Assembly: GCA_905160935.1 (NCBI GenBank)
Contig: CAJHZI010000884.1
Coordinates: 1,139,501 to 1,203,500 of the forward strand
DNA length: 64,000 nt
Source of the DNA: Enchytraeus crypticus
Taxonomy: Eukaryota; Annelida; Clitellata; Enchytraeida; Enchytraeidae
Direction: 5' to 3'
Shown: positions 12,608 through 27,733 of the stretch, one piece after another
Position numbering within the stretch: position 1 is the stretch's first letter
How the letters are laid out: each line of letters opens with the position of its first letter
Translations under genes and position numbers: made by a program
The notes under the pieces: generated by a model
The model's input: only the letters and a program-made list of their open reading frames with translations
Database searches by the model: none
Told to the model about the DNA's origin: nothing

Positions 12608-12748
12608 AGTAGTAGGATTATTGGGGGGCTAGGACAAAATGATATTCAAGGCAAAGTTATGCATAAAATTTAGCTCAAATCAATATTTAGCCTTGTCTTG
12701 CCTTGAATGATCCATACTCAAATGTTTATGAATAATTTAAGCACACCC
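12608..12748 (+). repeat. Left terminal inverted repeat, 141 bp
   Basis: Base-by-base comparison with the reverse complement of 27593-27733 shows no mismatch over 141 positions; similarity stops abruptly inside gcacaccc. It begins with AG, as Polinton ends usually do. The repeat contains the inner near-palindrome aaggc...gccttg. In protein-primed replication the 5' ends act as origins, so this is the predicted origin. Confidence 0.97.
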
Positions 12749-13527
12749 ACAGCTCACGAGGACAAAAACGATTTCAATTCACATCATTTCATCCACAAGG
12801 CAGAGACAAAATGATTTTAACAGGCATCTTTAGCCTTGATACCTAAGCTTATATCTATATTAGCCTTGTATCTAGCCTTGTCATCAACGTATGTACTGAA
12901 AGTATGATAACCACTCTCCTAGCCTAGCTGTAAACGGTCGGGTTAAAATAACGCAGCTGTTCAGCTACCTTAAAGAAACTATACATGTATGTAAAAGCCT
13001 ATACCCGAGACAGCAGAGTATACTCTCAGATACTTAGCTTAAAATAACAGCTGGATGTTTATATATACTGAGCGCTGTAAAAAGCTCTAGTAAAAAGACA
13101 CAGCTACTCGATGCCGATGCTCAGATGTTGTAACTCTGTGGAAAGCGAAAGTGAAAAGCCTATACGTGTATATTTCTACAGTATACTTTCCAAAATTCAT
13201 AAATGTAGTTACTTTATGAAGCAATCAATATATTTACTGTTACCCAAATATCAAATTCATAGCCATCTTCGCTGTGTCTTAAGCTAATGTACGTGGTACA
13301 CTGAGTTACACATCAGCAGCTATAATCTTTTTATAAGACAGCAGAGTATACACGAGTATACTCTGCTGCAGCCTACACGTTAAACAGCTGGAAAGTTGAG
13401 CTTCAGTAGTGGAGTGGTACTCATTCCGTGAATAGCAAAAACATAAATATATACAAGAAAATGAAAATATAATAAAAATTAAAAATATATGAATTTTATT
13501 TAAATTTATTTTCTTGTATATATAAAA
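12749..13527. promoter_or_regulatory. Left subterminal non-coding region with palindromes
   Basis: No conserved coding. It contains the 12-bp perfect palindrome AGAGTATACTCT (13015-13026). It also contains a perfect hairpin at 13339-13368, with 13-bp arms CAGCAGAGTATAC / GTATACTCTGCTG and a 4-base loop. Both share the GAGTATACTC core, which suggests a repeated protein-binding site for replication, packaging or the polymerase promoter. The short minus frame at 13306-13572 crosses this region and looks accidental. Confidence 0.6.
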
Positions 13528-16500
13528 ATGGAAACTCAAACGGTGAAACAATTGCGACTTGTCGCGAAGCAACGAGGTATTAAAAGATACTATTCTCTTC
13601 GCAAGGCAGAGCTTATTGATGCGTTGTCATCGACATCACAAACAATCGGTGGTGTTGTAGATTTGCTCAATTCTCCTGTACCAGATATTCAACAACCGAT
13701 TTTAGTTCCAACTAAATATAAGCCATCGTCTAAGATACATTATGAGAATTTCCTTGACACACCTGTGCCAGATATCAAATCCGAGATTCTTAAACCAATT
13801 AAGACTGGAGTAATGGCAACTATCAAATCATATTGGGATTGGCTGATAAGCGATGTACCAGCAAAAATTAAAAAGCCGATAAACGAATCTTTTAAAGCAC
13901 TAAAGTCTAAAGTTTTGAACATATTCGCTCAACATGAGGTAAACAAACATAAAATCAGTGAAACTAAATCAGCGTTAAAAGGATTCACAAAACAATACGT
14001 CATTGAAGGTAGAGATGGAGTTGATGCTGTGACATTTCTAAGCAGTATTCAACCACAAGTGTTAAATGTATTAAACAACAACCCTCAGTCAAAAGTTAAT
14101 CTAACACTCACATGTACAATGGAAAGGGTGGATTTGAAGACTGGGGAAATTACATCGTCTGACGCCCCTTTTCTTTCAAAAACTGAAATAATTTTACCAT
14201 CCACAGATACCGCAGAGGTGTATGAAAAGACTAAACGTAAAATGCTAGAGTCAATGGCTAATTTTCAGATGCGGGGTAGTAATTGGAGATTTCGCAGAGT
14301 GATGAAATTAGAAATAAATACCGTAGTATACAAACCGCTACGAGCTAGCTCCTATATTCCACTTCCTGAAGAATTAGCCGCTAAAAAGGCCATAATAAAT
14401 ATGAAGAATGAAGATAATCAGTGTTTTAAGTGGTGTATAGCTAGAGCCTTAAATAATATAGAAATACATCCTGAGCGCATTGATAAACAATTAAAGAAGC
14501 AAGCTGAAGAATTTAACTGGACTGGTATTGAGTTTCCGGTTAACTTGAAAAATATTGATAAATTTGAAAAGAATAATAATATTTCTATTCATGTATTTGG
14601 ATATGAAAAGCTATGGGCATGGGCTAAAGAAGAAGAAATAATACCATTAAGGATTTCAACATTTACTAGTCAAAACGCAGTAGATTTGTTACTAATATCA
14701 GAAGGTGAGATTAATCATTACTGTTGGATAAAAAACTTTAAAAAATTGATGGCAATTGATGGAAATCACCATGCAATGCACTACTGTAGGAGGTGCTTAA
14801 ACGGTTTCACAAGTGAAAATGCTCTTAATAATCACACTGAATATTGTTCACAACACGACGCTCAAAAAATAGTGTTGCCAGAACCTGGAACGTTTATGGA
14901 ATTCAATCACTACAAAAAATCGATGCGAGTACCATTCATAGTTTACGCAGATTTCGAGTCATTTATTAAACCGATTGATACACGTCAGCCGGATCCAAGC
15001 AGGTCAACCACTATCCGATACCAGAAACATACACCTAGTTCATTCTGTTATTACATCAAGTGTTTTGATGATAGCATTTACTCGCAAGCTCCAGTCACTT
15101 TTACTGCAAAGAATGAGAATGATGATGTTGCTCAAATATTCTTTGATACTTTAGAGAAAAATATAAAAGAAATATACCATCAGTTCAAGTTTTCTAAACC
15201 AATGATATTCGATGAATCTGCCGCGAAGAAATTCAAGGCCGCAAAATCATGTCATATTTGTGAAAAAGAGTTGGGTAACGATCGTGTCAGAGACCACTGT
15301 CATCTATCTGGCAAATTCCGAGGAGCAGCACACGATGAATGTAATTTACAATACAAAATTCCAAAATTCTTTCCAGTAGTTTTTCACAATTTATCAGGAT
15401 ACGACGGTCATTTATTTATAAAGAAGTTGGCAGGTGGACAAATTAATTGTATTCCGTGTAACGAAGAAAAGTACATCAGTTTCTCTAGGGAATTGCTGGT
15501 TGACAAGTTTATAAATAAAACAGGTAAAGAAGTCCTAGTGAAACGAGAATTGCGGTTTATCGATAGCTTTAGATTTATGGCTTCGAGTCTTGAGAAACTT
15601 TCAAAGAATCTAAGTAAAGATCAGTGTAAGAATATTGCAAGTAAGTATTCTGGAAAGCAATTGGATTTGCTGTTGAGAAAAGGAGTTTACCCGTACGATT
15701 ATGTTAGTTCGTCAGAAAGACTTGATGAAACTAAACTACCGCCAAAGGATGCTTTCTACTCAAAACTTAACGATACCAATATCAGTGATGAAGACTATAA
15801 ACACGCAGAGACTGTTTGGAAAGAGTTTGGTTGTAAAACATTTCGAGACTATCACGACTTGTACAATATATCTGATGTGCTTTTACTAGCAGATGTCTTT
15901 GAAAATTTTAGAGATGTATGTATGACCCACTATAAATTAGATCCTGCGTGGTCCTACACATCACCAGGACTAGCTTGGGATGCTGCTTTAAGACTAACTA
16001 AAGTTGAACTCGAATTGTTAAGTGACTACGACATGCTATTGATGATTAAGCACGGTATTAGAGGTGGTGTGAGCACAATATCAAACAGATATGCAAAAGC
16101 TAATAATAAATACATGATTGATAAGTTTAACGTTAATGAACCTTCTAAATTTATCAAATACCTTGACAGTAACAATCTTTATGGGTACTCGATGAGTAAG
16201 CCTCTACCCACACACGGATTCGAATGGATGACAGAAAAAGAACTGGAGAACTGGAAAGAAATGAAGTGTATACTCGAAGTTGACTTGGAATATCCAGCCA
16301 CGCTGCACGATCTTCATAATGACTATCCTTTAGCGCCCGAGATTGTGAAAGTGAATAAAGTGGATAAACTGATACCGAATTTGAATGACAAAACAAAGTA
16401 TATAATACACTACGAGAATTTGAAATTGTACGAAAGTCTGGGAATGAAAATTACTAAAATACACAGAGGTATAAAATTTGAAGAAAGTCCTTGGCTTAAG

Positions 16501-17352
16501 CCTTACATTGATCTAAATACTCAGCTAAGGACCAAGGCTACCAACGATTTTGAAAAAGACTTTTTCAAACTAATGAATAATAGTGTGTTTGGCAAAACTA
16601 TGGAGAATATTGAAAATAGGATAGATTTCAAATTGGTAGACGATAGAGAGAAAGCCATTAAATTAGCTGCAAAACCGTATTATGACCGCACAACTATATT
16701 TGATGAAAATCTTGTCGGCGTCCACATGAGAAAGACTAAATTGCTGTATAATAAGCCTATATACCTGGGCATGGCAATACTAGATTTAAGTAAAACTTTA
16801 ATGTACGACTTTCACTACAACTACATAAAGAACAAATATAACGATAAAGCCAAGCTGTTGTTTACAGATACTGATTCTCTGATGTACGACATACAGACGG
16901 AAGATTTTTTCGCAGACATTTCTAATGATGTCGAACAAAAATTTGACACCAGCGAATACCCTAAGGATCATCCATCAGGCATTAAGACTGGAGTTAACAA
17001 GAAAGTTATTGGTATGTTCAAGGACGAAGCCTGTGGAAAAGAGATTGCAGAATTTGTTGGATTGAGAGCAAAGTTGTACTCGTACAAATTAGCTGACGAA
17101 GAGCACAAGAAATGTAAAGGTGTTAAAAAGAATGTTGTTGAAAGGACAATAACGCATGACGATTATAGAGATTGTCTGTTTGAGAAAAGAAATCACATGA
17201 GAAGCATGAATGTCATCAGATCTCACTTGCATGAAGTCTACACTGAACAAGTAAATAAAATTGCTCTCAGCGCAGACGATGATAAGCGAGTAATCATGGA
17301 CGATGGGATACATACATTCGCGTATGGCAATTACAGGATAAAGACAGCATAG
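13528..17352 (+). CDS. polB: Protein-primed family B DNA polymerase (Polinton pPolB)
   Basis: 1274 aa, replicating the element by protein priming. Residues about 5-35 look like a SAP/Rho-N-type helical DNA-binding motif (VKQLRLVAKQRGIKRYYSLR). A Cys/His zinc finger with CRRC...H..YC lies at about 422-445. The exonuclease domain follows: Exo I DFESF (about 474), an inserted C-x2-C/HxH endonuclease VII-like zinc module (about 573-600), and Exo II HNLSGYDGHLF (about 619). The polymerase domain has motif A DSNNLYG (about 879), motif B NNSVFGKT (about 1016) and motif C DTDS (about 1113), then a KCKGVKK motif. All catalytic acids are present. The ATG is fixed by TATATAAAA touching it. It is the only long + gene of the left half and converges on the small gene at 17474. 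Confidence 0.97.
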   Translation: METQTVKQLRLVAKQRGIKRYYSLRKAELIDALSSTSQTIGGVVDLLNSPVPDIQQPILVPTKYKPSSKIHYENFLDTPVPDIKSEILKPIKTGVMATIKSYWDWLISDVPAKIKKPINESFKALKSKVLNIFAQHEVNKHKISETKSALKGFTKQYVIEGRDGVDAVTFLSSIQPQVLNVLNNNPQSKVNLTLTCTMERVDLKTGEITSSDAPFLSKTEIILPSTDTAEVYEKTKRKMLESMANFQMRGSNWRFRRVMKLEINTVVYKPLRASSYIPLPEELAAKKAIINMKNEDNQCFKWCIARALNNIEIHPERIDKQLKKQAEEFNWTGIEFPVNLKNIDKFEKNNNISIHVFGYEKLWAWAKEEEIIPLRISTFTSQNAVDLLLISEGEINHYCWIKNFKKLMAIDGNHHAMHYCRRCLNGFTSENALNNHTEYCSQHDAQKIVLPEPGTFMEFNHYKKSMRVPFIVYADFESFIKPIDTRQPDPSRSTTIRYQKHTPSSFCYYIKCFDDSIYSQAPVTFTAKNENDDVAQIFFDTLEKNIKEIYHQFKFSKPMIFDESAAKKFKAAKSCHICEKELGNDRVRDHCHLSGKFRGAAHDECNLQYKIPKFFPVVFHNLSGYDGHLFIKKLAGGQINCIPCNEEKYISFSRELLVDKFINKTGKEVLVKRELRFIDSFRFMASSLEKLSKNLSKDQCKNIASKYSGKQLDLLLRKGVYPYDYVSSSERLDETKLPPKDAFYSKLNDTNISDEDYKHAETVWKEFGCKTFRDYHDLYNISDVLLLADVFENFRDVCMTHYKLDPAWSYTSPGLAWDAALRLTKVELELLSDYDMLLMIKHGIRGGVSTISNRYAKANNKYMIDKFNVNEPSKFIKYLDSNNLYGYSMSKPLPTHGFEWMTEKELENWKEMKCILEVDLEYPATLHDLHNDYPLAPEIVKVNKVDKLIPNLNDKTKYIIHYENLKLYESLGMKITKIHRGIKFEESPWLKPYIDLNTQLRTKATNDFEKDFFKLMNNSVFGKTMENIENRIDFKLVDDREKAIKLAAKPYYDRTTIFDENLVGVHMRKTKLLYNKPIYLGMAILDLSKTLMYDFHYNYIKNKYNDKAKLLFTDTDSLMYDIQTEDFFADISNDVEQKFDTSEYPKDHPSGIKTGVNKKVIGMFKDEACGKEIAEFVGLRAKLYSYKLADEEHKKCKGVKKNVVERTITHDDYRDCLFEKRNHMRSMNVIRSHLHEVYTEQVNKIALSADDDKRVIMDDGIHTFAYGNYRIKTA

Positions 17353-17354
17353 GA

Positions 17355-17452
17355 CTGATGTCGTCTCGATACGAGTACGTCGAGATGTCATTAAGAATCA
17401 TACGTTTTGTGTTTCTATTTTCATTAATATTTCAAAACCAAATGTAGTTTGG
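17355..17452 (+). terminator. 3'-end hairpins between converging polB and the small gene
   Basis: Twelve nt after the polB stop, TCTCGA...TCGAGA (17364-17369/17380-17385) can form a 6-bp stem. It lies within the block GTCTCGATACGAGTACGTC, which recurs in inverse orientation at 20905-21125. A second stem, CCAAA-TGTAG-TTTGG (17438-17452), lies 22 nt after the stop of the opposing gene, next to AATAAA at 17454. Transcript 3'-end function is inferred from position. Confidence 0.45.
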
Positions 17453-17473
17453 AAATAAACTTTTTATATTTCT

Positions 17474-17821
17474 TTATAACCATACAACCCCAGCATCATC
17501 GTTCGTGCTTTTGTTAAAACCATCAATCTCTGCATACAACTTTCCTTTATATTTTCCGGAATTGATTCGTCTTACAGTAAAATCAAATCTTTTAGGCTTA
17601 TTTTCCAATTTTTCCTTTTTAATATATTCATTAATCTTATTTGTAGACCACACTTTTATAGGGTTATCACCCTCATTTTCTACAACATACAAAATATATG
17701 ATTTACCAAATCTTCCATCTATTGATTTCATTCCTATTACGGTATAGTCATATCCCTCCTGAAGTTCTTGAAATTTGATAACGTTGGATTGAGTGTTTTC
17801 GTTAGAGTTTGTAGTTGTCAT
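17474..17821 (-). CDS. Small OB-fold-like protein, putative ssDNA-binding
   Basis: 115 aa. After a disordered N-terminus (about 1-14, T/N/S-rich) comes a beta-rich domain: YTVIGMKSIDGRFGKSYILY, then a second half FDFTVRRINSGKYKG. Alternating strands with aromatic and basic residues and the R-F/Y-G-K-S-Y-I-L pattern suggest an OB-fold single-strand DNA-binding protein, which would suit displaced strands in protein-primed replication. This is an inference from pattern, not from a recognised family signature. TATATAAA touches the ATG. It lies 36 nt downstream of integrase. Confidence 0.6.
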   Translation of the reverse strand: MTTTNSNENTQSNVIKFQELQEGYDYTVIGMKSIDGRFGKSYILYVVENEGDNPIKVWSTNKINEYIKKEKLENKPKRFDFTVRRINSGKYKGKLYAEIDGFNKSTNDDAGVVWL

Positions 17822-17857
17822 TTTATATAGCTAAGATAATTATTTAAAAAAAAATCT

Positions 17858-18865
17858 TTAAACTAAATTTTGTAAATTTGCAACAGGAATCCATTCATTG
17901 TACTTTTTACTGTAACCCACCCATTTGACCAAAGCATGTTCAACACCTTTAATCTTTTTCCGTTGCAGTACCTTTTCCATTCTATATATTTCTTGATTAG
18001 TTTTCTGCAATTCTTCGGCATAGAAACCTCCTTCTAATACCTCACTTGATTGATCCTTCAGTATATATGTAACTGGTGAAGTATACTTTACTTTAACTAC
18101 TTGGAAAACCTCTTCAGACCAATTGGGTAGGTATCCCTTTTCAAAAACACCCTTAATCCGACTAATTCTAACTCTATCACCAACCTCAAATTTTCGATTC
18201 GTTTCCAAATTTCTATACTTCCTACTGTTAATTATAAATGCTTCGTTTTCCTTTCTACTAGCCTCTGCTGGAGTCATTTTTACGGTTGAATGCTTTGTGT
18301 TGTTATACATGACAATTAATTCGTTTATCATATCAATCCAATTTCTCGTATTTTCAGCCGTAAACCTCTTCCACATTTTCTCCTTGATGCTTCTATTGAA
18401 ACGCTCAACAACTGCCGATTTATGTTCTCCAAATGTAGAGTATTTTTTAATACTATTTTTCTTTAACCAATCATCCATATTCTTGTTGTAAAATTCCTTA
18501 CCCTGATCCACCCACAAGAACTTTGGCAACCTGTCTGAACTTTTTACAATAAATTTGAAGGCTTCGGCTACAGTTTCGCCTCTCTTGTCTTTCAACGGAA
18601 CGCTCCATGCATACTTGGAAAACACATCGATGACGTTAAGCATGTATCTGTGGCCCTTATTAGCTCTACTCCATTCCTGCATTTCGATTAAATCTGCTCC
18701 CCATATCTCATCAACTTCAAACACGTGAACTTGACGTCTTGTAAATTTTCTACGAATCGGTTTGTGTAATTCTCTAGCCAATTCTTCAAAGGGTCCAACG
18801 TTTCGCTTCAAACCTTTTCTTCGCTGGACCCCTCTATTCGTTTTTTGACTCAACACCAAGACCAA
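17858..18865 (-). CDS. int: Polinton integrase (rve family) with C-terminal chromodomain, no ATG
   Basis: An open frame of 335 codons counted from a TTG at 18865; the frame is open up to 18880. The DDE triad is D58 (WGADL), D120 (WVDQGKEF) and E154 (AVVERFN), giving D-x61-D-x33-E. Residues about 293-335 (YRMEKVL...ALVKWVGYS...W) form a chromodomain, which usually directs insertion toward modified chromatin. It performs strand transfer of the element ends, producing the 6-bp duplication. There is no ATG before the catalytic core: the first in-frame one is after D58. The frame overlaps the end of the PLA2-like gene by 47 nt in the +1 frame next to an A6 run (18841-18846). It may be made by +1 frameshifting, by reinitiation at a non-AUG codon, or be disabled by an indel. 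Confidence 0.92.
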   Translation of the reverse strand: MVLVLSQKTNRGVQRRKGLKRNVGPFEELARELHKPIRRKFTRRQVHVFEVDEIWGADLIEMQEWSRANKGHRYMLNVIDVFSKYAWSVPLKDKRGETVAEAFKFIVKSSDRLPKFLWVDQGKEFYNKNMDDWLKKNSIKKYSTFGEHKSAVVERFNRSIKEKMWKRFTAENTRNWIDMINELIVMYNNTKHSTVKMTPAEASRKENEAFIINSRKYRNLETNRKFEVGDRVRISRIKGVFEKGYLPNWSEEVFQVVKVKYTSPVTYILKDQSSEVLEGGFYAEELQKTNQEIYRMEKVLQRKKIKGVEHALVKWVGYSKKYNEWIPVANLQNLV

Positions 18866-19364
18866 ACTTTGCCTTATTTTTCATGATGTGGTATACAAAT
18901 CGAGCCATATTTCTTTGTGCACTATCAAATCTTGAATCATTAGCAATTTCGTATGCTCGATGAGCCAAAGCTTCGTCGCTTATATTTCTGCTCGCTGTAT
19001 CGGTATTTGCAGTATAAAACTGGTCGTGCAATTTACACATTCCATCCAACTCATTTATACCCTGATAACCTTCGCGATTTCTCAGTTCGTACTTTGTGCC
19101 TGGACCGCAGTACGAATACTTGTTGAGATTATTAAATGAACCGTTAGGTACGTACTCTCCACGTCTGGCAGGTAAATGTAGTTCTCCAACTGTATTTCCA
19201 ACTGCCGATAACACATTATTAAACACACCCTGACCCGAGACAAATTTTGACTTTTTACTTCCACACACTCCACAAATGGCAAATTGCTGTTTTCTATTAT
19301 TAGCAGTCAACCTTTCCTGCGTCTGTGTAGAATCAGTTTTCCTTTTACATTTCAAGCAGTACAT
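18834..19364 (-). CDS. Zinc-ribbon plus phospholipase A2-like virion protein
   Basis: 176 aa. The N-terminal 1-43 form a zinc ribbon with CLKC and CGVCGSKKSKFV, the DUF5679-type module of Polinton and related proteins. Residues about 83-125 carry YCGPG (calcium loop) and LDGMCKLHDQFY, the catalytic His-Asp of PLA2-like domains such as those in parvovirus minor capsid proteins. Such domains act on endosomal membranes in known virions; here that role is inferred. The start is supported by TTTAAAA before the ATG and by the zinc ribbon beginning at once. The gene follows MCP and its end overlaps integrase, so it takes the place of a structural protein upstream of an enzyme. Confidence 0.85.
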   Translation of the reverse strand: MYCLKCKRKTDSTQTQERLTANNRKQQFAICGVCGSKKSKFVSGQGVFNNVLSAVGNTVGELHLPARRGEYVPNGSFNNLNKYSYCGPGTKYELRNREGYQGINELDGMCKLHDQFYTANTDTASRNISDEALAHRAYEIANDSRFDSAQRNMARFVYHIMKNKAKFGLGVESKNE

Positions 19365-19417: not shown

Positions 19418-20797
19418 TTAATCTATAATAATCGGAGTCTGACCATCGGATGTTAGGTACATCACTCTATCGGAAAGTATCGTAACATACATATGAGTAT
19501 GTTCTGGAACATTTTGACTAAATTTAAAATTAAGTTTCATATTCATAACATCAGTTTTGACTTTTTCACTCTGATGTCGTACATCAAAGACTAGTAGTGG
19601 AAATAGCTTTTTGTAATTCATCATATCGATCTGTGTACCTCCAATTAAATGATTAAAACCAAAGTGTTCCTTCTTAAATTCATCTGCCATAGCGCAGAAA
19701 TCTACATAGTCATTTGTAGCAAAGTTTATTCTCGGTTCATCTGCAGGATATCTCTGATCATTCAATTCAACAAAAGCACTAGTCAAGTTAAGGTGATCAA
19801 ACACAGCTGGATTTTGTTCCTGTGTTCTTGATTTGTCAGTTTGAAATCCAACAATTATCCATCTAGGCTTTTTCATTCCAGCGTCTCTATTGATCATCCA
19901 TTCAAATTCCTGTACATCTCGTGTAACTGTAGTATGTTGGTCAGTTCTTCTGCTAAAACTTATTGGAATTTTCCTTTTACTTACAACAGACTCTCGCAGT
20001 GAAGTTATCATTTCAACTGACGGTTTTATTCTTGGTACCATCCACCTAATATCCGTTAGTGAAACTTTACCTTCAAAAACGTTATTCGCTTTATGAATTG
20101 CTGATGTGTTTTCTGTTCTAGTGAACCTCAACGTATGTCGCAAATTGTAAAGTACTTTGTTATAATCGGAAAATCCAAATAGATGCGAAAATGGAATGTT
20201 GAATGAAAATTGACCTGGCGCATCGTTGTTCATTAGAAGTTGTCGGCGAATCGCAAATCCTTCATTGTAATCTGGATTTTCTTGCGGTGTAAAATGATTG
20301 GCAACAATGGCTGCGCCTCCTGCAACTGCTGGAGATTGTCTATATTTAGAGGACACTGCACCAACATTTGTGTCCTTTCTCCAACATTGATTCAATCCCG
20401 CGCTGCTATTGAAATCGTCAGGATAAGACAAATAACCCAACATTGACGTGGTCTGTCCAGGAAAATGTAATGATTCAACTGATTTACCTCCTAGATCGTA
20501 CTCAATACTAGAAAAGAGGTATGGAATAGCATTATTAATCAAAGCTATTTGAGCTGTTGCATCAAAGGCATTGTTATTATCATTTCTTAGTAATCTTCCC
20601 TTAATTTTAAGAAAGCTCTTAGATATGTTGTAATACGAATCACTTGCAGGGATATCAATTTCAATAACATTAGGGCTATCATTAAAACCAGCTTTAGTCT
20701 GTGGAATAAAAGACGAGAATTGAGAACTTTCTACACTATTGTCAACAATTATTGACGATGGTTGTGTGAAAATTTCGTTTGGCACTTCAGTTTCCAT
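19418..20797 (-). CDS. MCP: Major capsid protein, double jelly-roll
   Basis: 459 aa from the ATG at 20797, where TATATATAAA touches the start. The frame is open 118 codons further upstream (to 21151), but that part is three 18-residue repeats plus a low-complexity hydrophobic run encoded by tandem DNA repeats, so I treat it as untranslated. The protein has the Polinton capsid pattern: an N-terminal strand-rich segment (IEIDIPASDSYYNISKSFLKIKG in two blocks), then ALINNAIPYLFSSIEYDLGG, and a second jelly-roll half ending near MYVTILSDRVMYL. It would form the hexon-like shell with the minor capsid protein. No break is seen. Confidence 0.93.
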   Translation of the reverse strand: METEVPNEIFTQPSSIIVDNSVESSQFSSFIPQTKAGFNDSPNVIEIDIPASDSYYNISKSFLKIKGRLLRNDNNNAFDATAQIALINNAIPYLFSSIEYDLGGKSVESLHFPGQTTSMLGYLSYPDDFNSSAGLNQCWRKDTNVGAVSSKYRQSPAVAGGAAIVANHFTPQENPDYNEGFAIRRQLLMNNDAPGQFSFNIPFSHLFGFSDYNKVLYNLRHTLRFTRTENTSAIHKANNVFEGKVSLTDIRWMVPRIKPSVEMITSLRESVVSKRKIPISFSRRTDQHTTVTRDVQEFEWMINRDAGMKKPRWIIVGFQTDKSRTQEQNPAVFDHLNLTSAFVELNDQRYPADEPRINFATNDYVDFCAMADEFKKEHFGFNHLIGGTQIDMMNYKKLFPLLVFDVRHQSEKVKTDVMNMKLNFKFSQNVPEHTHMYVTILSDRVMYLTSDGQTPIIID

Positions 20798-20904: not shown

Positions 20905-21125
20905 GATACTCGTATCGAGACGACATCTTGACGTACTCGTATCGAGACGACCTATATCTATCTTGAAATTTTAAAACATTTAGGTCGTACTCAAATCGAG
21001 ACGACCTATATCTATCTTGAAATTTTAAAACATTTAGGTCGTACTCAAATCGAGACGACCTATATCTATCTTGAAATTTTAAAACATTTAGGTCGTACTC
21101 AAATCGAGACGACATCTCGGCGTAC
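20905..21125 (-). repeat. 54-bp direct repeats upstream of MCP
   Basis: Three units with exact 54-bp spacing (gacgac blocks ending near 20952, 21006, 21060 and 21113), each holding a GTCGTCTCGAT/TTGAGTACGAC-like core. Two extra cores lie at 20907-20951. The same core lies after polB at 17358-17385 in opposite orientation. It sits in the interval between the 103-aa gene's 3' end and the MCP start, so a promoter, enhancer or 3'-end role is possible. Confidence 0.85.
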
Positions 21126-21149
21126 TTTAAAGGGGGGCAAACTGACTTC

Positions 21150-21177: not shown

Positions 21178-21193
21178 AACCAAATATTTTAAA

Positions 21194-21490
21194 CTAAAAT
21201 CGTTTTAATCCACTGCCTGATTTTCTTAATTGTTCTAGTATCTGCTCTGATTCTGGAGTTAGCTGACTATTTTTGCTTTTTTCTGCTGCTATCTTTCTAA
21301 TGAGTGCTTTACTAGCCTCTGTCATTCCGAATGCAGCAATATCACCTACTGCTCCTAGCATTGGCTTTGCAATTAAATCTTTATTCTGATAGACGTACGA
21401 ACCCACATCTTTCAGTGTATCAACAAATCCCCGTCCATGTACCAGAGTTTGTTTTGAACTGTATGCTTTGCATTTCTCTTTGACAATCAT
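21194..21490 (-). CDS. Small putative virion/membrane-active protein
   Basis: About 98 aa if started at the ATG at 21490, where TAAAA touches the start; an ATG 5 codons upstream (21505) is less likely. A basic N-terminus is followed by the amphipathic stretch GRGFVDTLKDVGSYVY, then AKPMLGAVGDIAAFG and a charged C-terminus ending GSGLKRF. Small basic/amphipathic proteins between the capsid genes of Polintons are thought to be core or membrane-active components, like adenovirus minor proteins. I do not recognise a defined family. It lies between the MCP and the minor capsid gene in one co-directional block. Confidence 0.6.
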   Translation of the reverse strand: MIVKEKCKAYSSKQTLVHGRGFVDTLKDVGSYVYQNKDLIAKPMLGAVGDIAAFGMTEASKALIRKIAAEKSKNSQLTPESEQILEQLRKSGSGLKRF

Positions 21491-21517
21491 TTTTACTAAA
21501 TACAATATATTTTTAAA

Positions 21518-22252
21518 TTAGATTTTTTCTCTAATTAGTAATACTACAGTAATTCTTTCACCCATCAGATCGATAAGTTTGTTGTCTTGATCGGTCAGCC
21601 ACAGTTTTATACTATCAATTTCACCTCTGTGAACTATTGGTAAAAATATCAATTCAGGAGTAGGATTCTCTATGATTTTATAGCCTGGATTTACTCTCTG
21701 TGTGAATGTATGTATCACATTAGATTTATTGCTATTAAGATAGTTCCCAGTAGCAATATCGCAATGGACTTGTATCGAATTGACTTTTTCTATATCTATT
21801 ATATTTGGAGATAGATGAATTCCTTGTGATAAGCAGACGTTTTCATTGGTGAAGCCAAGAGTAGGCCCTATTGAATTTTCCAGTCTGAAATCAACCATGT
21901 ACTTTTCATCTGATATAGTCAAAATTGTCTTGAAAATTAAATGACTTATGTTTATATAATATTTTTCATTATTTGCATCGTAGTCGCCGTTTTCTCGCAT
22001 TTCTCTTTGAATCGTAGCGTTAATATCTTTTAATTCGTAAGCACCTTTTGAAAGCGTGATTATTTTCCAAGTACTTCGGCCGTCGGTGGAATATTTAAAT
22101 TTATTGTTGACTTCTGTGATGTTTGGAATTGTATTATACGTCATCAGAGATATAAATGCTACTTCATACTTTCTATCACAATCCAATCTTATTGGAGGGT
22201 GCAGATATGTAGTAAAATCTGTTGACGTGCTCGACAGAGTTAATTTCGCCAT
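21518..22252 (-). CDS. mCP: Minor capsid (penton-like, single jelly-roll) protein
   Basis: 244 aa. The N-terminus (KLTLSSTSTDFTTYLHPPI) with the following YEVAFISLMTYNTIPNI is the characteristic opening of Polinton minor capsid proteins, and the C-terminus ITVVLLIREKI is the usual closing strand. Predicted beta-rich throughout with no membrane segment. By analogy with adenovirus and virophage pentons it would fill the capsid vertices. ATTAAAAA touches the ATG. The length is normal for the family and the frame is intact. Confidence 0.88.
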   Translation of the reverse strand: MAKLTLSSTSTDFTTYLHPPIRLDCDRKYEVAFISLMTYNTIPNITEVNNKFKYSTDGRSTWKIITLSKGAYELKDINATIQREMRENGDYDANNEKYYINISHLIFKTILTISDEKYMVDFRLENSIGPTLGFTNENVCLSQGIHLSPNIIDIEKVNSIQVHCDIATGNYLNSNKSNVIHTFTQRVNPGYKIIENPTPELIFLPIVHRGEIDSIKLWLTDQDNKLIDLMGERITVVLLIREKI

Positions 22253-22289
22253 TTTTTAATGACAGGATTAAATTTTTAAATTGGATATT

Positions 22290-23156
22290 TTAGAGAACTT
22301 CGAAATGGTTTTTATATATAACATCGTACAACCCTTTGGTGATTACTCTAATTCTTAATAACTCATCCAAAATGCTAACTGCGGTATTATACACTCCAGT
22401 GTTTCCAGCTTGTAGAGCTGCTACATTTTCATTCAATAGACGAACCAATTGATCTGAGCTTTCATAAATTATAACCTGGTCTGTTTTAGGCCTGCCTCTA
22501 CCACGCTTTTGTTGAACCAGCGTTTTCTTTTTCTTCTTATTCTTCAGTCCTTCACCCAAGAGCTCACTCCCTGCTTTTGCCTTTGTTAATATGCTCTTGT
22601 ACTTCTCTAGTGTTTTCTGTTGAGACTCGCATATTTTTTTCTCACCCTCTGTCTTTTTACTGTTACTTCCCAAGTACTGCCCTATTCGTCTATTACGCGT
22701 TTGAATCTCCTTTAATGTTGCTTCAATTTCGTTGTTTTCGTACACTTCACTTGGAAGTTTCAGGTCGAGTAGTTCTAGATTCTCTCGATCACTTTCATTG
22801 AGATTCTTGTCTAAATTAATAATTAAAGGATCCCTCCTTGGCGTGGATTCTCGTTCAGGAATTGGGGAATCATAAAATGGCATTGCCTGTATAGCCTCTC
22901 TTTGATCATTTGAACGCATCAATTGATTAGTAAAGGGAACTAAAATATCACTCAAGTTTTGCTTGTTGTCGACAATCTTTTGTTCTAGAATTTGAGCCGT
23001 TTCCCTCGTAGTATCAATTAACGGTTTGAACAACTTTGCTTGACTCTCATATGCCTGTTGATTACCAAGTTTCTCATTCCGAAACATTTGTTTGGCTTCG
23101 TTCTTGGCTTTTGTAAACCGGTTAATATCAAACTCTTTCATCATTTTATTAGACAC
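22290..23156 (-). CDS. Coiled-coil and AT-hook protein, PX-like
   Basis: 288 aa. Residues about 5-90 are helical and charged (likely coiled coil). A linker rich in E, R, N and K follows to about 210, then a lysine run and the AT-hook KRGRGRPK (217-224). The last 60 residues (from about 228, SSDQLVRLLNENVAALQAGN) form a helical domain seen at the end of a conserved Polinton protein. It likely binds AT-rich DNA and may be a core or scaffolding protein; this is inferred. TAATAAA touches the first ATG. Other ATGs lie 4-5 codons in. Confidence 0.65.
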   Translation of the reverse strand: MSNKMMKEFDINRFTKAKNEAKQMFRNEKLGNQQAYESQAKLFKPLIDTTRETAQILEQKIVDNKQNLSDILVPFTNQLMRSNDQREAIQAMPFYDSPIPERESTPRRDPLIINLDKNLNESDRENLELLDLKLPSEVYENNEIEATLKEIQTRNRRIGQYLGSNSKKTEGEKKICESQQKTLEKYKSILTKAKAGSELLGEGLKNKKKKKTLVQQKRGRGRPKTDQVIIYESSDQLVRLLNENVAALQAGNTGVYNTAVSILDELLRIRVITKGLYDVIYKNHFEVL

Positions 23157-23159
23157 ATA

Positions 23160-23336
23160 AATTTTTTATTATGTATTTTTAGGTATTATTATGTATTTTT
23201 AGGTATTATTATGTATTTTTAGGTATTAGGTATTATTATGTAATATTATGTAATATTATGTAATATTATGTAATATTATGTATTATTATGTATTATTATG
23301 TATTTTTAGGTATTTTTAGGTATTTTTCGGGTATAT
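23160..23336. repeat. 10-20-bp AT tandem repeats between the PX-like and ATPase genes
   Basis: Units tattattatgtatttttagg, shortened to taatattatg and tatttttagg, repeat across about 175 bp. The array runs into the last 13 codons of the ATPase, so the ATPase tail is made of repeat sequence. Confidence 0.9.
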
Positions 23337-24024
23337 ACATTTTATTGTAATTTAACAAATATCGTCCACAATCAGGATCTTCCCACAGATTTATTACAAT
23401 ATATCCATGCTTTCTTGCCCACGCTTCATTGGAGATTTTTTCAAACTCTTTAAATGACATATCTCCCGATACGTGTGTTTCATAAAAATATTTCAGCGAC
23501 TTCTCATCATGTTGAAATAAAATAAAAATATTGGCATTTTGACGTATGCCATGTTTTTTCAGTTTATGTATGCTCTGACATAAATAGAATACATTCGCAT
23601 TATTGTGTCTACCTTGACAAAAATACTCTGTCATGACTTTCTGATCTTCATTCATGACGTCATCAAATATTACAACATGTGTTTTATTTGCATCGAGTTC
23701 CGAAGGGTGAGCAATTCCATCATCTGGGTTGTGAAAAGTAACAATATCTTTACCTGATTTAGATTTCTTTTTAACTACATCATTACAATCTCGAAGGTAT
23801 TTATAAGCATCTTGATCGGGTGTCATTGTGTACACCATGATATCGTCGTAATGCACTAATTTTTTCATAATAAAGTTCATCATTAGATTTGTCTTACCAC
23901 AACCGGTGCTGCCAGCTAGTATCATAAATATATTTTTAGGAAATATATCGTGATGCTTGCTCTCATAGTTGCTACCGTAAATTTTTTGATAAATTTTCGA
24001 ATAGTTAGTATTCAAGTCTACCAT
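23296..24024 (-). CDS. Genome-packaging ATPase (FtsK/HerA, A32-like)
   Basis: 242 aa. Walker A GSTGCGKTN (38-46) and Walker B VVIFDDV (117-123) are complete. A conserved downstream block, LCQSIHKLKKHGIRQNANIF, matches the sensor/arginine region of Polinton and virophage packaging ATPases. It would pump DNA into the capsid. ACATAAAA touches the ATG. The C-terminal residues YLKIPKNT come from the neighbouring tandem repeat, so repeat-length changes would alter the tail but not the core. Confidence 0.95.
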   Translation of the reverse strand: MVDLNTNYSKIYQKIYGSNYESKHHDIFPKNIFMILAGSTGCGKTNLMMNFIMKKLVHYDDIMVYTMTPDQDAYKYLRDCNDVVKKKSKSGKDIVTFHNPDDGIAHPSELDANKTHVVIFDDVMNEDQKVMTEYFCQGRHNNANVFYLCQSIHKLKKHGIRQNANIFILFQHDEKSLKYFYETHVSGDMSFKEFEKISNEAWARKHGYIVINLWEDPDCGRYLLNYNKMYIPEKYLKIPKNT

Positions 24025-24040
24025 TTTTATGTATTGGTCA

Positions 24041-24367
24041 TTATTTTAAATTGTTTCTCTCGTATAATTCATTTAATATATCGGTAAATTTAGATCCATT
24101 ATTCAGTTTATAAAGCACGTAAATGCAGTAATGACCGCAGATGACTTCGTTCGGTGCTTGAATTTTGAATGTATTATAATAACTTTCCTTATCTTTGCAA
24201 TAATTCTGAACTTCTAATGGAGGTATGAAACCGTAACTGTCAAAGTATAAACATTTACCATCATTACTATACAAAGATGTCCAGTGTGTTCCGTCTCCTT
24301 CGCTATCGTCTATATTAAGAATTAAACATTCGTTGTTACTTGCTAATCCATTTAGCTCGTCCCGCAT
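24041..24367 (-). CDS. Adenain-like maturation protease, no ATG for the N-terminal part
   Basis: From the internal ATG at 24367 it is 108 aa with the catalytic His in GTHWTSLY, an acidic residue in YFDSYGF, and Cys in CGHYCIYVLY, in the order His-Asp-Cys of adenovirus-type cysteine proteases. The same frame is open upstream to 24493, about 42 more codons. That part also looks like protease (a helical segment, then HFKGVFMRDEL), but no ATG occurs in it. It overlaps the 3' end of the 206-aa gene by 68 nt in the +1 frame. So the full domain needs a frameshift, a non-AUG start, or an indel explanation; the triad alone is within the ATG-started product. Confidence 0.88.
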   Translation of the reverse strand: MRDELNGLASNNECLILNIDDSEGDGTHWTSLYSNDGKCLYFDSYGFIPPLEVQNYCKDKESYYNTFKIQAPNEVICGHYCIYVLYKLNNGSKFTDILNELYERNNLK

Positions 24368-24425
24368 GAATACACCTTTGAAATGTGGAATTTTTAGCTC
24401 TTTGCATTTTTCTATAATATCAAAG

Positions 24426-25046
24426 TTACTTAGCGGTTTGATGGTTTTGAATGATTTTAGAAATTGGGGGAAGTTTACACCTCCCCTGTCTGGCTAAAAA
24501 AACTCCTGATCCGCCTCTTTCCAAATACAATCCATTACCCCACTTGGCTCCTTTCAAATTCTTGACGCATCCACCGAGTCCAAATTTCTTCAACGCATTT
24601 GATAGCGTTTTACCTATAACGGGGATTGGAGCTATTGCGTCGCTGATTAAGCCTGCGCCGAGTTGTTGCTTGGTTATGTTTTCCAATTCTTGATTATGTC
24701 TCTTCATTTCATTTGTCTGTCTAGTCGAATTCACTGCCGAGCTAATTCCACCTGCCAATCCACCTATAGCTCCCACGATGGCGGGAATGGCTGCTGCCAA
24801 CAACGGCAGAAATCCTCCATTCTTTTCCATGTACTTTAATTGTGCTCTACTCAGACACAATTCTATTCCAGATGTAGCCTTTTTAATTTTATTAATTTGA
24901 GTTTGGGTGAGAGGAAGATTCGTATTACCCGACAAATTCTTTTTTAATATTCGTATTTTAACCTCTCTATCATGATCGCACGCGCTCTTTAGTTTTTGGA
25001 CCTGACCTTTAGTCAACGTTACACCGTAGTTTGTATACTTTGACAT
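24426..25046 (-). CDS. Hydrophobic glycine-rich virion-like protein upstream of protease
   Basis: 206 aa. The N-terminal half has two similar repeats of the type VTLTKGQVQKLKSA and LPLTQTQINKIKKA, then LSRAQLKYMEKNGGFLPLL. Residues about 80-105 are a hydrophobic, glycine/alanine-rich segment (AAAIPAIVGAIGGLAGGISS). The C-terminal part is Gly- and basic-rich. This is a widespread Polinton gene, probably a membrane-active or core virion protein comparable in position to adenovirus VI/X; its function is not proven. TATATAAAA touches the ATG. Its last 68 nt overlap the protease frame. Confidence 0.72.
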   Translation of the reverse strand: MSKYTNYGVTLTKGQVQKLKSACDHDREVKIRILKKNLSGNTNLPLTQTQINKIKKATSGIELCLSRAQLKYMEKNGGFLPLLAAAIPAIVGAIGGLAGGISSAVNSTRQTNEMKRHNQELENITKQQLGAGLISDAIAPIPVIGKTLSNALKKFGLGGCVKNLKGAKWGNGLYLERGGSGVFLARQGRCKLPPISKIIQNHQTAK

Positions 25047-25077
25047 TTTTATATAACATTTAAATTTTTATTATAAA
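25047..25077. promoter_or_regulatory. 31-bp divergent start region
   Basis: Only 31 bp separate two opposite ATGs. Each has its own start-touching box: TATATAAAA before the minus gene and TTATAAA before the plus gene. There is no room for separate conventional -30 TATA promoters with 5' UTRs. Confidence 0.7.
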
Positions 25078-26352
25078 ATGAGTACTATATCGAAAACTGG
25101 TGGCAAATCGCATTCAACAACTGGTGATTTGATGGAGCATGTAGACTCAGTTTTCAGGCCAATTGTCAAGCTTGTTGATAAACTCGACAGTATCAAACTT
25201 GACAAAACTGGAGGAGATATCACCGGAGACATTAATATGAGCAACAATAGAATTTTAAACGTTAAACATCCTCCTGAAACGGATGCGGATGTTGTCACAA
25301 AGGAGTACTGCGATCTTTATGTTAACGAGTTTGCTAAAAATTTAAGAGTAGACATCCTAAAAGAAGTAGAACAAAACGTAGTTGCTAATGACATTGCTAT
25401 ACAAAAAAATATTGATACGAAACTCAGTGTGAATGGTGGTTCAATGAATGGAGACATTAATATGAGCAACAATCGTATAACTAATGTTAAAGAACCTGAA
25501 CAAGACAGTGACGCCATTAGTAAGAATTATTGTCGGAAATTGATCGCACACGCTGAATCGGAAATTAGGAAACGCATGGTACACATTAATGGTGATTCCA
25601 TGACTGGTAGTTTATATATGAATAATAATCGTATCACTTATGTTAAACACCCTCCTGAAAATGACGCTGATGTCATTACAAAGAGGTATTGTGATGAGAA
25701 ATTTATAAAATTAAACGAAGATATTGATTCACTGGGTCGCCATGTTAATACTGACATACCGAACAGAATGACTGAACTTCAAAATGATCTCCTTTGGAAA
25801 ATGCAAGAAGCTAGAAATTTTGACAAAGTGCTTTTGCTAATATCAACTCAAAACGACGAAATTACAAATGAAAATTTGATAAAGGTGGCTGACCATCTGA
25901 CTGAACTTTTTAAAATCTTTCCAGACCTTACGAGTTACAAGTCAAAGTTTCTTGCAATATATTCTCGAGTAAAGAGCATACTATCGATATTCTCACAACT
26001 AGAGGATGTGGAGTTGCTCCCCGAATTTACACATTTTATTTACATGAATGATCTGAAAAATATCATTATACACATTATTCAGGAACTAAATGTTCATCAA
26101 TTCATTACATTTAAAAATGCTTTGATTCGAGCTAAATTACTGGCAGCTATGCCAGAAGAAAGGATCTTAATTGTAAAAAAATGTCGTAAAATAATAAATA
26201 GATTTGTTAAACATTGTGATCCACAAAGACAAAATCAAGATTTGGATCTCTTGGTACAAAAGAATCTATTAATTCTCGATTTAGGTATTGTATATTTTAG
26301 CAGTGAGCTACTGAAGCAGATTGTAATATTAAGTGAGCAAAAAGGCGTTTGA
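25078..26352 (+). CDS. Fibre-like protein with three phage-tail-fibre-type repeats
   Basis: 424 aa. Three repeats at 45-79, 120-152 and 171-206 follow the pattern G-G/D-x-M/I-x-G-x-I/L-x-M-x-N-N-R-I-x-x-V, then P, then DA-x-x-x-x-K-x-Y-C. This is the known tail-fibre shaft repeat of bacteriophages (GxMxGxIxM...DAxxKxYvD), a trimeric beta structure. Residues about 210-424 are helical, charged and leucine-rich, with no repeat. No signal peptide or membrane segment. By position in a capsid-coding element it is a candidate vertex fibre or attachment protein, which is an inference. It converges on the 134-aa membrane gene. Confidence 0.72.
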   Translation: MSTISKTGGKSHSTTGDLMEHVDSVFRPIVKLVDKLDSIKLDKTGGDITGDINMSNNRILNVKHPPETDADVVTKEYCDLYVNEFAKNLRVDILKEVEQNVVANDIAIQKNIDTKLSVNGGSMNGDINMSNNRITNVKEPEQDSDAISKNYCRKLIAHAESEIRKRMVHINGDSMTGSLYMNNNRITYVKHPPENDADVITKRYCDEKFIKLNEDIDSLGRHVNTDIPNRMTELQNDLLWKMQEARNFDKVLLLISTQNDEITNENLIKVADHLTELFKIFPDLTSYKSKFLAIYSRVKSILSIFSQLEDVELLPEFTHFIYMNDLKNIIIHIIQELNVHQFITFKNALIRAKLLAAMPEERILIVKKCRKIINRFVKHCDPQRQNQDLDLLVQKNLLILDLGIVYFSSELLKQIVILSEQKGV

Positions 26353-26360
26353 CTTGGATA

Positions 26361-26404
26361 TTAACGCTATCGTTAAATTCGTTAATAAATGTATTAACAA
26401 ATTT
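26361..26404. terminator. Two hairpins between converging genes
   Basis: TTAACG-CTAT-CGTTAA (26361-26376) is followed by a longer stem whose arms are AAATTCGTTAATA and TATTAACAAATTT (26375-26404), with one mismatch and loop AATG. They fill the 54-bp gap between the fibre-like stop (26352) and the opposing stop (26407). Confidence 0.55.
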
Positions 26405-26406
26405 TC

Positions 26407-26811
26407 TTATGTGAATTCAGAAATGATCTGATTGTAGGATGCCTCCGTTAGATTTCCATTACAGCTGACTACAAAGTCAAATCTATCATTGAGCTTATTC
26501 AGTTTTTCAATTTCTGTATTTAGTTTATTACTTTTAGCTTGAAAATTGAATTTATTGGCGAAGGCTGTCAATATACCGCTTGTAGTGGATAACACTATTA
26601 TAGCAACAGGTGGGATTACAACAGCTGTAGCAGTTGCAGCTAGCACTGCGGAAATTACAATCGAAGCTACCGCGGTAGTGTAGGAAAGTGTTTTTACAAT
26701 CTTTCGCTTTCGCTTTAGTTTTTTAACAACTGTTTGCCTTTCTTCAAGCTTTCTAATTAAAAATGCTTTCAGTTTACTTGAAAGCGAAGTGCCATCTACT
26801 GTGTCTGTCAT
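26407..26811 (-). CDS. Two-helix membrane protein with C-terminal coiled segment
   Basis: 134 aa. A basic cluster KKLKRKRK (about 30-37) is followed by two hydrophobic segments (about 43-60 and 64-82, rich in A, V and I), then a helical region KLNTEIEKLNKLNDRFDFVV and an acidic end. This layout (cytoplasmic basic, two membrane passes, coiled helix) resembles SLATT-like and common Polinton membrane proteins. A role in membrane remodelling, exit or entry is possible; no family is certain. ATATAAAAA touches the ATG. Divergent from the AT-hook gene, 83 bp away. Confidence 0.6.
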   Translation of the reverse strand: MTDTVDGTSLSSKLKAFLIRKLEERQTVVKKLKRKRKIVKTLSYTTAVASIVISAVLAATATAVVIPPVAIIVLSTTSGILTAFANKFNFQAKSNKLNTEIEKLNKLNDRFDFVVSCNGNLTEASYNQIISEFT

Positions 26812-26894
26812 TTTTTATATCAACAAATTTTTTAAAGTAACTATGATTTTTTTAAATTGATTTTCATTTAAATAAATTATCTTGCGTATATAAA

Positions 26895-27212
26895 ATGAAA
26901 GACTCAACCGCCGAAGTGAAGCTTGAAGAAGTGAGAGACGAAGATAAGACAACAAGAAAAAGAGGAAGACCTAGAAAATATCCGCCAAAAGAAGTTGATC
27001 CTAACAAGGATATAGGCCTAAGGTATGAGTACTTGAAGACTATAAGAAATAATCCTAGACCTGTGAGATTGGAAAACACACTCACTGGTGAAGTTGTGGA
27101 ATTCAAGTCGACATATGAAGCTGCTAAAGAAACTAAACATTATACAAAGTTCTTTATTATAAACGATGGTAGGATTGTTGATGGCTGCTATAAATTTACA
27201 ATGGTTAAATGA
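26895..27212 (+). CDS. AT-hook protein with NUMOD1-like segment
   Basis: 105 aa. Acidic/basic N-terminus, AT-hook RKRGRPRKYP (about 22-31), and a C-terminal half with VRLENTLTGEVVEFKS, then YEAAKE and an I-x-x-G-R-I...Y-K-F pattern. It resembles the NUMOD1-type small DNA-binding modules found near homing endonucleases. It likely binds AT-rich DNA, perhaps as a regulator. TATATAAA touches the ATG. It is the last gene before the right end. Confidence 0.6.
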   Translation: MKDSTAEVKLEEVRDEDKTTRKRGRPRKYPPKEVDPNKDIGLRYEYLKTIRNNPRPVRLENTLTGEVVEFKSTYEAAKETKHYTKFFIINDGRIVDGCYKFTMVK

Positions 27213-27215
27213 AAG

Positions 27216-27241
27216 TTTTAATAGTATATTTACTATTGAAA
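27216..27241 (+). terminator. Hairpin after the AT-hook gene
   Basis: TTTTAATAGT and ACTATTGAAA pair over 10 positions in RNA, with one U-G wobble and loop ATATTT, starting 3 nt after the stop codon. Confidence 0.5.
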
Positions 27242-27247
27242 CAGGAT

Positions 27248-27347
27248 TAGCTCGTCAATATGCTGACGAAGCAAAACTGTAGGTCTTTACATCCTGCTTA
27301 CCGCACTGCGATGACTCATTGTCATTTGGTTGTTGCGTAACGAGCTA
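27248..27347. other. Multi-hairpin structured region at the right end
   Basis: Outer arms TAGCTCGT and ACGAGCTA enclose three hairpins: TCGTCA/TGACGA; AAGCA/TGCTT with inner TGTA/TACA; CGCA/TGCG with inner ATGAC/GTCAT. The first hairpin shares bases with the outer stem, so the two may alternate. No tRNA A/B boxes are seen. It could be a packaging or replication signal, or a small structured RNA. Confidence 0.5.
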
Positions 27348-27356
27348 TTTATAGTT

Positions 27357-27391
27357 GAATAGAAACTGGGTTTTTCCATTAGTTTCTATTC
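27357..27391. repeat. Inverted repeat, 11-bp arms
   Basis: GAATAGAAACT and AGTTTCTATTC are exact complements around a 13-base spacer. Part of the right arm recurs in inverse orientation at about 27440-27460. The rest of the region to 27592 is non-coding. Confidence 0.7.
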
Positions 27392-27592
27392 TCGGTCAAA
27401 TGATTATGAGTCATGGAAAGTTTTCAAGGTCACTTGAGCAAGAAACTAATGAATGGAAAATTCCTATTTACTTGAAGGTAGAGCTAGGCTAAATATAGAA
27501 TTGAGCTAGGCTATAGGGCCGGGCTGTGCTTAAACTTCAGGACCATCGTCTAGCATGAAAGCTAAAATTGAAATTAGCCATTTTTAAGGCTG

Positions 27593-27733
27593 GGGTGTGC
27601 TTAAATTATTCATAAACATTTGAGTATGGATCATTCAAGGCAAGACAAGGCTAAATATTGATTTGAGCTAAATTTTATGCATAACTTTGCCTTGAATATC
27701 ATTTTGTCCTAGCCCCCCAATAATCCTACTACT
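27593..27733 (-). repeat. Right terminal inverted repeat, 141 bp
   Basis: Exact reverse complement of 12608-12748, ending ...AATCCTACTACT directly before GTGAAT. Identity of both ends indicates recent insertion, or end-to-end correction during replication. Confidence 0.97.

Follow-up and report, generated by a model that had tools for sequence, protein, structure and literature searches.

A young Polinton family in Enchytraeus crypticus with probable frameshift fusions of integrase and protease

Introduction

In the excerpted text of PMC8097293 (2021), particles of Polintons, also called Mavericks, are stated not to have been observed, and AGT AGT is given as the commonest end motif of vertebrate Mavericks. 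Adintoviruses are defined, in the parts of PMC11071296 drawn on here, by an integrase with a C-terminal chromodomain; in the same parts KnotInFrame suggested slippery sequences near the 3' ends of their Penton genes, with possible Hexon-Adenain fusions. Fibre proteins with phage-tail-fibre repeats are described for protist polinton-like viruses in the portion of PMC12220804 used here. We have analysed a stretch of 64,000 nucleotides from the annelid Enchytraeus crypticus (contig CAJHZI010000884.1, positions 1,139,501 to 1,203,500), hereafter the window, in which positions 12608-27733 form one element of 15,126 bp. It is an integrated Polinton, an adintovirus-like endogenous DNA virus, and belongs to a family that is integrating still or did so very recently.

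Two features of this family recall retroviral Gag-Pro-Pol frameshifting, in which the slippery heptamer is TTTTTTA in HIV-1 and AAAAAAC in some retroviruses, followed by a stem. The explanation that we consider probable is that of a young, high-copy Polinton family whose integrase and protease would be made as frameshift fusions, and whose copy in the window would need other copies in trans.

Results

The element and its copies in the genome

The element is bounded by terminal inverted repeats of 141 bp, the left at 12608-12748 (forward strand) and the right at 27593-27733 (reverse strand). Both arms start AGTAGTAGG, with the short terminal repetition AGT AGT that is typical of Polintons, and they are mutually 100% complementary. 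The 6-bp target-site duplication GTGAAT stands at 12602-12607 and again at 27734-27739. Arms identical at every position and a GTGAAT on both sides had been described in an earlier note on this DNA, and the comparison of the two arms and flanks bore this out.

Further copies were sought in the genome (524 Mb, 802 contigs). A search with the arm gave 196 candidates, of which 40 were scored (34 at 99-100% identity and 6 at 77-81%); the capsid gene gave 361 candidate places (40 scored, all at least 95% identical) and the fibre N-terminus 244 (40 scored). Both ends were retrieved for 13 elements, the window's included. C325, whose junctions were unreadable, was set aside as divergent and left out of all gene counts, leaving 12 complete copies. 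These were selected by the closeness of their arms to those of the window, so that the sample leans young. The exact 6-bp duplication is found directly at the ends in 10 of the 12, and C182 makes an eleventh once one AGT unit is taken to be missing on its left; with the window counted, 11 of 12 copies thus carry the duplication expected of a Polinton. The twelfth, C410, has no matching target duplication, and its ends are reiterated. The 11 target duplications all differ, and the flanks of the copies have only short repeat-like matches in common, which indicates independent integrations. Segmental duplication as the source of the many copies was rejected on these same grounds. An assembly chimera as the sole cause was rejected as well, since the same element, with its own target duplication, recurs on other contigs.

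Over 11 copies the two arms differ at 5 of 2,170 positions, or about 0.2% (a hand sum that excludes boundary positions and C410); the scripted raw total, which includes boundary positions and excludes C182, was 11 of 2,043. At an insect-like mutation rate of 3e-9 per site per generation, which may not be that of the host, a divergence of about 0.2% corresponds roughly to some hundreds of thousands of generations. The proposal of a young Polinton is therefore upheld for a family with repeated integration. The earlier note had advised a search for other copies and for empty sites, and had named many old copies with the same flanks as the finding that would speak against it; among the copies examined the opposite was seen, many being young, with different flanks and target duplications. 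In the search for an empty site the joined flanks matched only the two halves of the locus, so that no empty allele is present in the assembly.

A candidate frameshift signal between PLA2 and integrase

Gene identities were taken from profile searches with curated cut-offs, and some motifs were read by eye, as stated for each gene. The integrase frame (17858-18865, reverse strand) comprises an rve core and a chromodomain. It is retrovirus-like, as in Polintons (rve, E=4e-10; retroviral integrases by profile, best E=5.1e-8), and its C-terminal chromodomain (Chromo, E=1.1e-6) agrees with the definition of the adintoviruses. Upstream of it on the same strand lies the gene for a virion-type protein with DUF5679 and phospholipase A2-like (PLA2) domains, found by profile search (18834-19364).

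To compare the region between these genes, 30 capsid loci were retrieved (from the 40 scored of the 361 candidates), and 29 were set against that of the window. The comparison shows that in copies other than the window's the integrase frame begins after a stop codon, overlaps the end of PLA2 and has, as a rule, no early ATG. It is the −1 frame right after PLA2, and at the junction a slippery AAAAAAC is followed, after a short spacer, by a stem no longer than 13 bp. In the window this signal occupies 18788-18846 (reverse strand), with the heptamer at 18846-18840, a 5-nt spacer and a 13-bp stem between 18834 and 18788. The PLA2 end AAAAAACGAATAG is present in 22 of 30 loci, window included, and a variant that retains AAAAAAC in 5 more, so that the heptamer occurs in 27 of 30; the three loci that lack it (C171, C283 and C425) each have other frameshifts. 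Of the 27 loci with the heptamer (the window is one of these), 17 have a −1 frame that stays open over 305 codons or more, as far as the retrieved piece extends. The first ATG of the −1 frame is codon 55, counted from 0, in 24 of 27 (the exceptions being the window, C720 and C195), and this codon sits 4 residues beyond the first catalytic Asp of the triad, which was read by eye. The stem has a folding energy of −19.9 kcal/mol in the window, and the z-score of the fold is −4.2 to −5.0 in five of the six copies folded and −2.7 in the sixth (400 shuffles each). There were 2,419 integrase homologues at E≤1e-3, and among the best 120, which were examined, 40 are fusions of PLA2 and integrase in one open reading frame (ORF) with the same joint, at about 57-67% integrase identity.

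A candidate frameshift signal between pX and protease

A similar arrangement was found at the protease. The frame of this putative adenovirus-type cysteine protease (24041-24493, reverse strand, stop to stop; Peptidase_C5, E=0.006, weak and below the curated cut-off) is without a usable ATG and is the −1 frame directly after the gene for an adenovirus pX-like core protein (24426-25046, reverse strand; E=0.0014, below cut-off). The pX gene reads GTT TTT TTA, and the −1 frame from there enters the conserved N-terminus of the protease; the first ATG of the window's protease frame falls within this conserved region. The signal in the window occupies 24466-24501 (reverse strand), with TTTTTTA at 24501-24495, a spacer of about 8 nt and a stem between 24486 and 24466. 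TTTTTTA, the spacer of about 8 bases and a G+C-rich stem are present in all 11 other complete copies as well as in the window, and in 11 of 11 others the protease −1 frame is open to the end of the retrieved piece. The stem has −14.1 kcal/mol in the window, and the fold z-scores are −2.7 (window), −3.9, −3.9 and −1.5 (C123), again with 400 shuffles each.

Homologues of pX and protease numbered 142 in total. Among the 120 listed, 111 match pX only, 7 protease only and 2 span both. FL, which TTT TTA would encode, stands within the last 16 residues in 96 of the 111 pX-only homologues, and where the two spanning homologues pass from pX to protease they have FF, which is what slippage by −1 predicts.

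A count over 12 ORFs of the window gave 11 canonical heptamers in frame; the two junction heptamers rank first and second by the strength of the fold downstream, the third best being −12.3 kcal/mol. The family as a whole thus possesses the features by which −1 frameshifting is recognised, namely an in-frame X XXY YYZ heptamer, a spacer, a structure and a −1 ORF; at both signals of the window copy the −1 ORF is cut short. It is likely, judging from these sequence features, that Gag-Pol-like −1 ribosomal frameshifting makes integrase and protease as fusions.

The window copy

The alignments revealed that one base is missing from the window shortly after the PLA2/integrase slip site, by comparison with 29 of 29 other loci (a separate count gave 28 loci, C195 being uncovered there). 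A second 1-base deletion closely follows the pX/protease slip site when the window is set beside 10 of 10 comparable copies, C123 being divergent there. The −1 frames of the window are shut after 12 codons (integrase) and 8 codons (protease). In this copy the integrase frame is no longer the −1 frame of PLA2, the protease frame no longer that of pX, and the C-terminus of pX is shifted.

It had been claimed that the element has long undamaged frames and a full virion gene set that could make particles, provided that integrase and protease are expressed. Long open frames do exist, but they are not undamaged, given a deletion after each slip site, and in the copy as assembled the apparent frameshift route to both enzymes is broken. 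With both fusion frames interrupted, particle formation by the window copy alone appears doubtful, and the claim does not hold for this copy by itself. Other copies in the same genome might complement it. The lesson is that perfect terminal repeats and target duplications do not imply an intact copy.

Selection on virion and replication genes

The ratios of nonsynonymous to synonymous substitution rates (dN/dS), pooled for 29 copies each against the window, were 0.37 for the capsid, 0.36 for the penton, 0.18 for PLA2 and 0.28 for the ORF at 21194. The pooled value for integrase was 0.18 (25 copies; C776b, C757, C195 and C500 were dropped, their coverage being not above 0.9). For the polymerase, dN/dS ranged from 0.28 to 0.53 in 11 copies. 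All 13 single-pair tests rejected neutrality, with P from 0.009 for the short fibre N-terminus down to 1e-14 (capsid, 6.8e-5; PLA2, 1.2e-8; integrase, 6.7e-14; polymerase, 1.8e-4). These results indicate that the capsid and other virion genes are under purifying selection about as firm as that on the replication genes. When read in the frame of the window, 18 of 29 copies were free of stops and frameshifts in the capsid, 10 of 29 in the penton, 14 of 29 in PLA2 and 11 of 29 in the 21194 ORF. For integrase the number was 0 of 25, which exposes the window as the odd one out.

Fibre tips, mosaic copies and variable ends

The fibre-like protein (25078-26352, forward strand) has a conserved N-terminus, three repeats of phage-tail-fibre type and a C-terminal tip that varies between copies; it matches PHROGs tail-fibre families (best E=1.5e-11). 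An AlphaFold model of it had a mean pLDDT of 43, too low for use. Over the 12 copies, C410 being broken, the conserved N-terminus is followed by two or three repeats and by one of four tip types. The copies are mosaic in other genes also. The identity of C746 to the window jumps from gene to gene (integrase 86%, PLA2 99.6%, capsid 95%), and that of C778 is 99.7% in pX, 78% in the fibre and 99.7% in the 105-aa gene; over 25431-26331 it is 0.59-0.76, with 0.92-1.00 to the left and 0.86-1.00 to the right.

The ends vary too. Arm length runs from 141 to about 394 bp across copies, and in C479 and C410 the polymerase-side end bears 394 bp of the other end's terminal sequence. In these two copies (L080, L082) the N-terminal part of the polymerase differs as well, alongside the foreign terminal sequence at the same end. 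At L046 (C410) and L054 (C340) the polymerase-side end is reiterated in tandem, as two and as three units of 430 bp, and every unit opens with a perfect 141-bp arm. They are reminiscent of the reiterated ends that occur in protein-primed linear DNAs. At C410:2109479 and C410:2113864 the fibre region and right arm are found twice, about 4.4 kb apart, and the accessory end of C410 looks tandemly duplicated. The missing AGT unit of C182 would, we infer, result from a protein-primed start that did not jump back; such jumping back has already been proposed for Mavericks in the excerpted text of PMC8097293.

Other genes and surroundings

The DNA polymerase (13528-17352, forward strand, 1274 aa) has a Rho_N (SAP-like) N-terminus and an Endonuclease_7-like zinc motif; its Exo motif and motifs A, B and C were read by eye at residues 472, 878, 1017 and 1113, and no Pfam DNA-polymerase model was reported for it. 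Its Cys and His motifs, which bear on the OTU-like domain used to characterise adintoviruses, were likewise read by eye. The double jelly-roll capsid (19418-20797, reverse strand) matched PF21738 with E=1e-42, and the packaging ATPase (23296-24024, reverse strand) is poxvirus A32-like, as in Polintons (PF04665, Pox_A32, E=3.3e-7). Sequence searches of the PDB gave nothing significant for capsid, fibre or polymerase. The set of pPolB-like polymerase, integrase, ATPase, protease and capsid genes that had been proposed for the element is supported, for the protease by a match below cut-off.

The minor capsid (penton) protein is probably encoded at 21518-22252 (reverse strand), to judge from position and size, this ORF giving no significant profile match. 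Reverse-strand genes at 21194-21505 (103 aa) and 22290-23156 (288 aa) have no assigned role. The 115-aa protein at 17474-17821 (reverse strand) is OB-fold/SSB-like by eye and gave no Pfam match above cut-off. The small protein at 26407-26811 (reverse strand) had weak DUF4231/SLATT (two-membrane-segment) matches below cut-off; its DNA alleles are 86-100% identical, the 7 copies that are not identical to the window give dN/dS values of 0.15-0.27, and the product is perhaps a pore or holin-like protein. The 105-aa protein at 26895-27212 (forward strand) has a weak AT-hook match and two allelic types among copies.

A 54-bp tandem repeat of 3.4 units lies upstream of the capsid gene (20932-21113, reverse strand), and this array is possibly a control region in expansion. 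The repeats (20907-21126) are related to an inverted copy near the polymerase stop at 17357-17389. Their core is found five times at the window and C171 loci and twice at six others; the other 22 of 30 loci lack it. Between the ATPase and the 288-aa gene, 23166-23324 holds about 16 copies of a 10-bp A+T-rich repeat (TTATTATGTA).

Outside the element, a host-type ORF with a Nucleotid_trans domain (10703-12328, E=1.3e-20) stops about 270 bp before the left target duplication, and pieces of a non-LTR-like retrotransposon are found at 46376-48884 (reverse transcriptase, E=3.9e-24; a weak endonuclease match, E=0.0038). Positions 1-8000 of the window, run as a near search against the INPHARED phage collection, gave no match.

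Discussion

Alternative explanations

A number of observations weigh against production of the two enzymes by frameshifting. At the first signal, the integrase −1 frame is interrupted in 10 of 27 heptamer-bearing loci, window included; codon 13 of the integrase frame is an ATG in C720; 80 of the best 120 integrase homologues are unfused in the database; and the stem, which lies within a near-invariant stretch, is without covariation (95.0% of cells paired versus 95.4% in shuffles, 14 distinct sequences). At the second, the fold of C123 is ordinary (z −1.5), and the protease frame of the same copy offers an ATG at codon 7; a run of 8 Ts in C647 and C436 joins pX and protease in frame without a slip; the one compensatory pair of the stem, in which C123 alters both sides, was equalled in 130 of 500 shuffles (4 distinct sequences); and all 7 of the protease-only homologues begin with Met near there, although gene callers demand a start codon and so bias this count. 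Integrase and protease might instead come from spliced or separate transcripts, or from reinitiation at an internal or non-ATG start, the heptamers being chance products of A+T-rich sequence. Non-AUG starts exist in general and splicing is possible; a Met near the protease start in some relatives, the early ATG of C720 and a first stem without covariation would all suit such a route. We nevertheless regard it as improbable, because both heptamers lie in the upstream frame near its end, because each enzyme is encoded in the −1 frame, and because the two strongest folds among 11 follow precisely these heptamers. The one-ORF fusions of PLA2 and integrase at the same joint and a first integrase-frame ATG that in 24 of 27 loci comes past the catalytic Asp argue in the same direction.

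The two deletions of the window could be assembly errors, in which case this copy would be intact and self-sufficient. Both fall in short single-base runs, and young copies have single-base indels in other places too (capsid, penton, polymerase and pX), as errors or decay would give; two independent errors exactly at the frameshift signals would be a coincidence, and we hold this explanation to be somewhat unlikely, if a serious one. Another possibility is that the family spreads only within the genome as a transposon, with the capsid genes as passengers. The 361 candidate capsid places in one genome, 40 of them scored, are in keeping with this, and no relative was confirmed in IMG/VR contigs with four queries, the capsid, the integrase, the polymerase and an integrase alignment. 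The purifying selection on capsid, PLA2, penton and fibre N-terminus is, however, comparable with that on the polymerase, and fibre tips are swapped as modules, so that a purely intragenomic transposon seems quite improbable.

A possible retrovirus-like plan

For a young Polinton family with frameshift fusions, the following course may be proposed. Replication would be protein-primed from the ends beginning AGTAGT, and virions would be built from the double jelly-roll capsid, ATPase, PLA2 and pX proteins. The PLA2-integrase and pX-protease fusions would arise by −1 ribosomal frameshifting at AAAAAAC and TTTTTTA, which may keep the dose of each enzyme low and bring it into the particle on a structural protein. 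The fibre-like protein with its exchangeable tips would attach the particle to cells. The window copy would have inserted recently and lost both fusions through two single-base deletions, so that other copies would be needed in trans.

We lean, with modest confidence, towards a wider reading, in which the lineage comprises DNA viruses with a retrovirus-like plan: two −1 frameshifts, low-dose fusions, relatives that fix the first fusion and a swappable fibre. On this plan the integrase would enter the particle tied to a membrane-piercing protein and the protease tied to a DNA-core protein, the swappable phage-type fibre would set the target cell, and distant relatives would have fixed the PLA2-integrase fusion in one frame. 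These considerations touch on how Polintons express and carry integrase and protease, and on whether animal Polintons are infectious; frameshift fusions offer a concrete mechanism. That relatives have one-ORF fusions suggests transport of the integrase together with a virion protein, and exchange of fibre tips among otherwise near-identical copies is expected of particles that must find cells.

Comparison with known systems

A limited literature search, with the original Polinton papers outside its reach, found no report of Polinton frameshifting into the integrase. Judged on this limited literature, the candidate signals that link PLA2 with integrase and pX with protease appear to be new.

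The element resembles the animal Polintons/Mavericks (adintoviruses, Eupolintoviridae, Sf-Mavericks), as far as they are described in the excerpted texts of PMC8097293 and PMC5803895, in its 6-bp duplications and AGT AGT ends, in a POLB with an Endonuclease VII-like match, in an rve integrase with chromodomain, in the PLA2 'CAP', in a putative protease, in the ATPase and capsid, and in core genes under purifying selection. It differs from those descriptions in its two candidate −1 frameshift signals and in a phage-fibre-like gene with swappable tips. Unlike the adintovirus candidates in the consulted parts of PMC11071296, the donors here are PLA2 and pX, and the products integrase and protease. 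The fibre is like that of protist polinton-like viruses in its phage-tail-fibre repeats, whereas here, in distinction from the fibres in the portion of PMC12220804 used, it belongs to a Polinton with polymerase and integrase, and its tips are swapped among the copies of one genome. As in retroviral Gag-Pro-Pol, a canonical heptamer and a stem would join a structural protein to an enzyme; unlike Gag-Pro-Pol, the arrangement is found in a DNA virus-like element, and its enzymes are placed on two separate structural genes.

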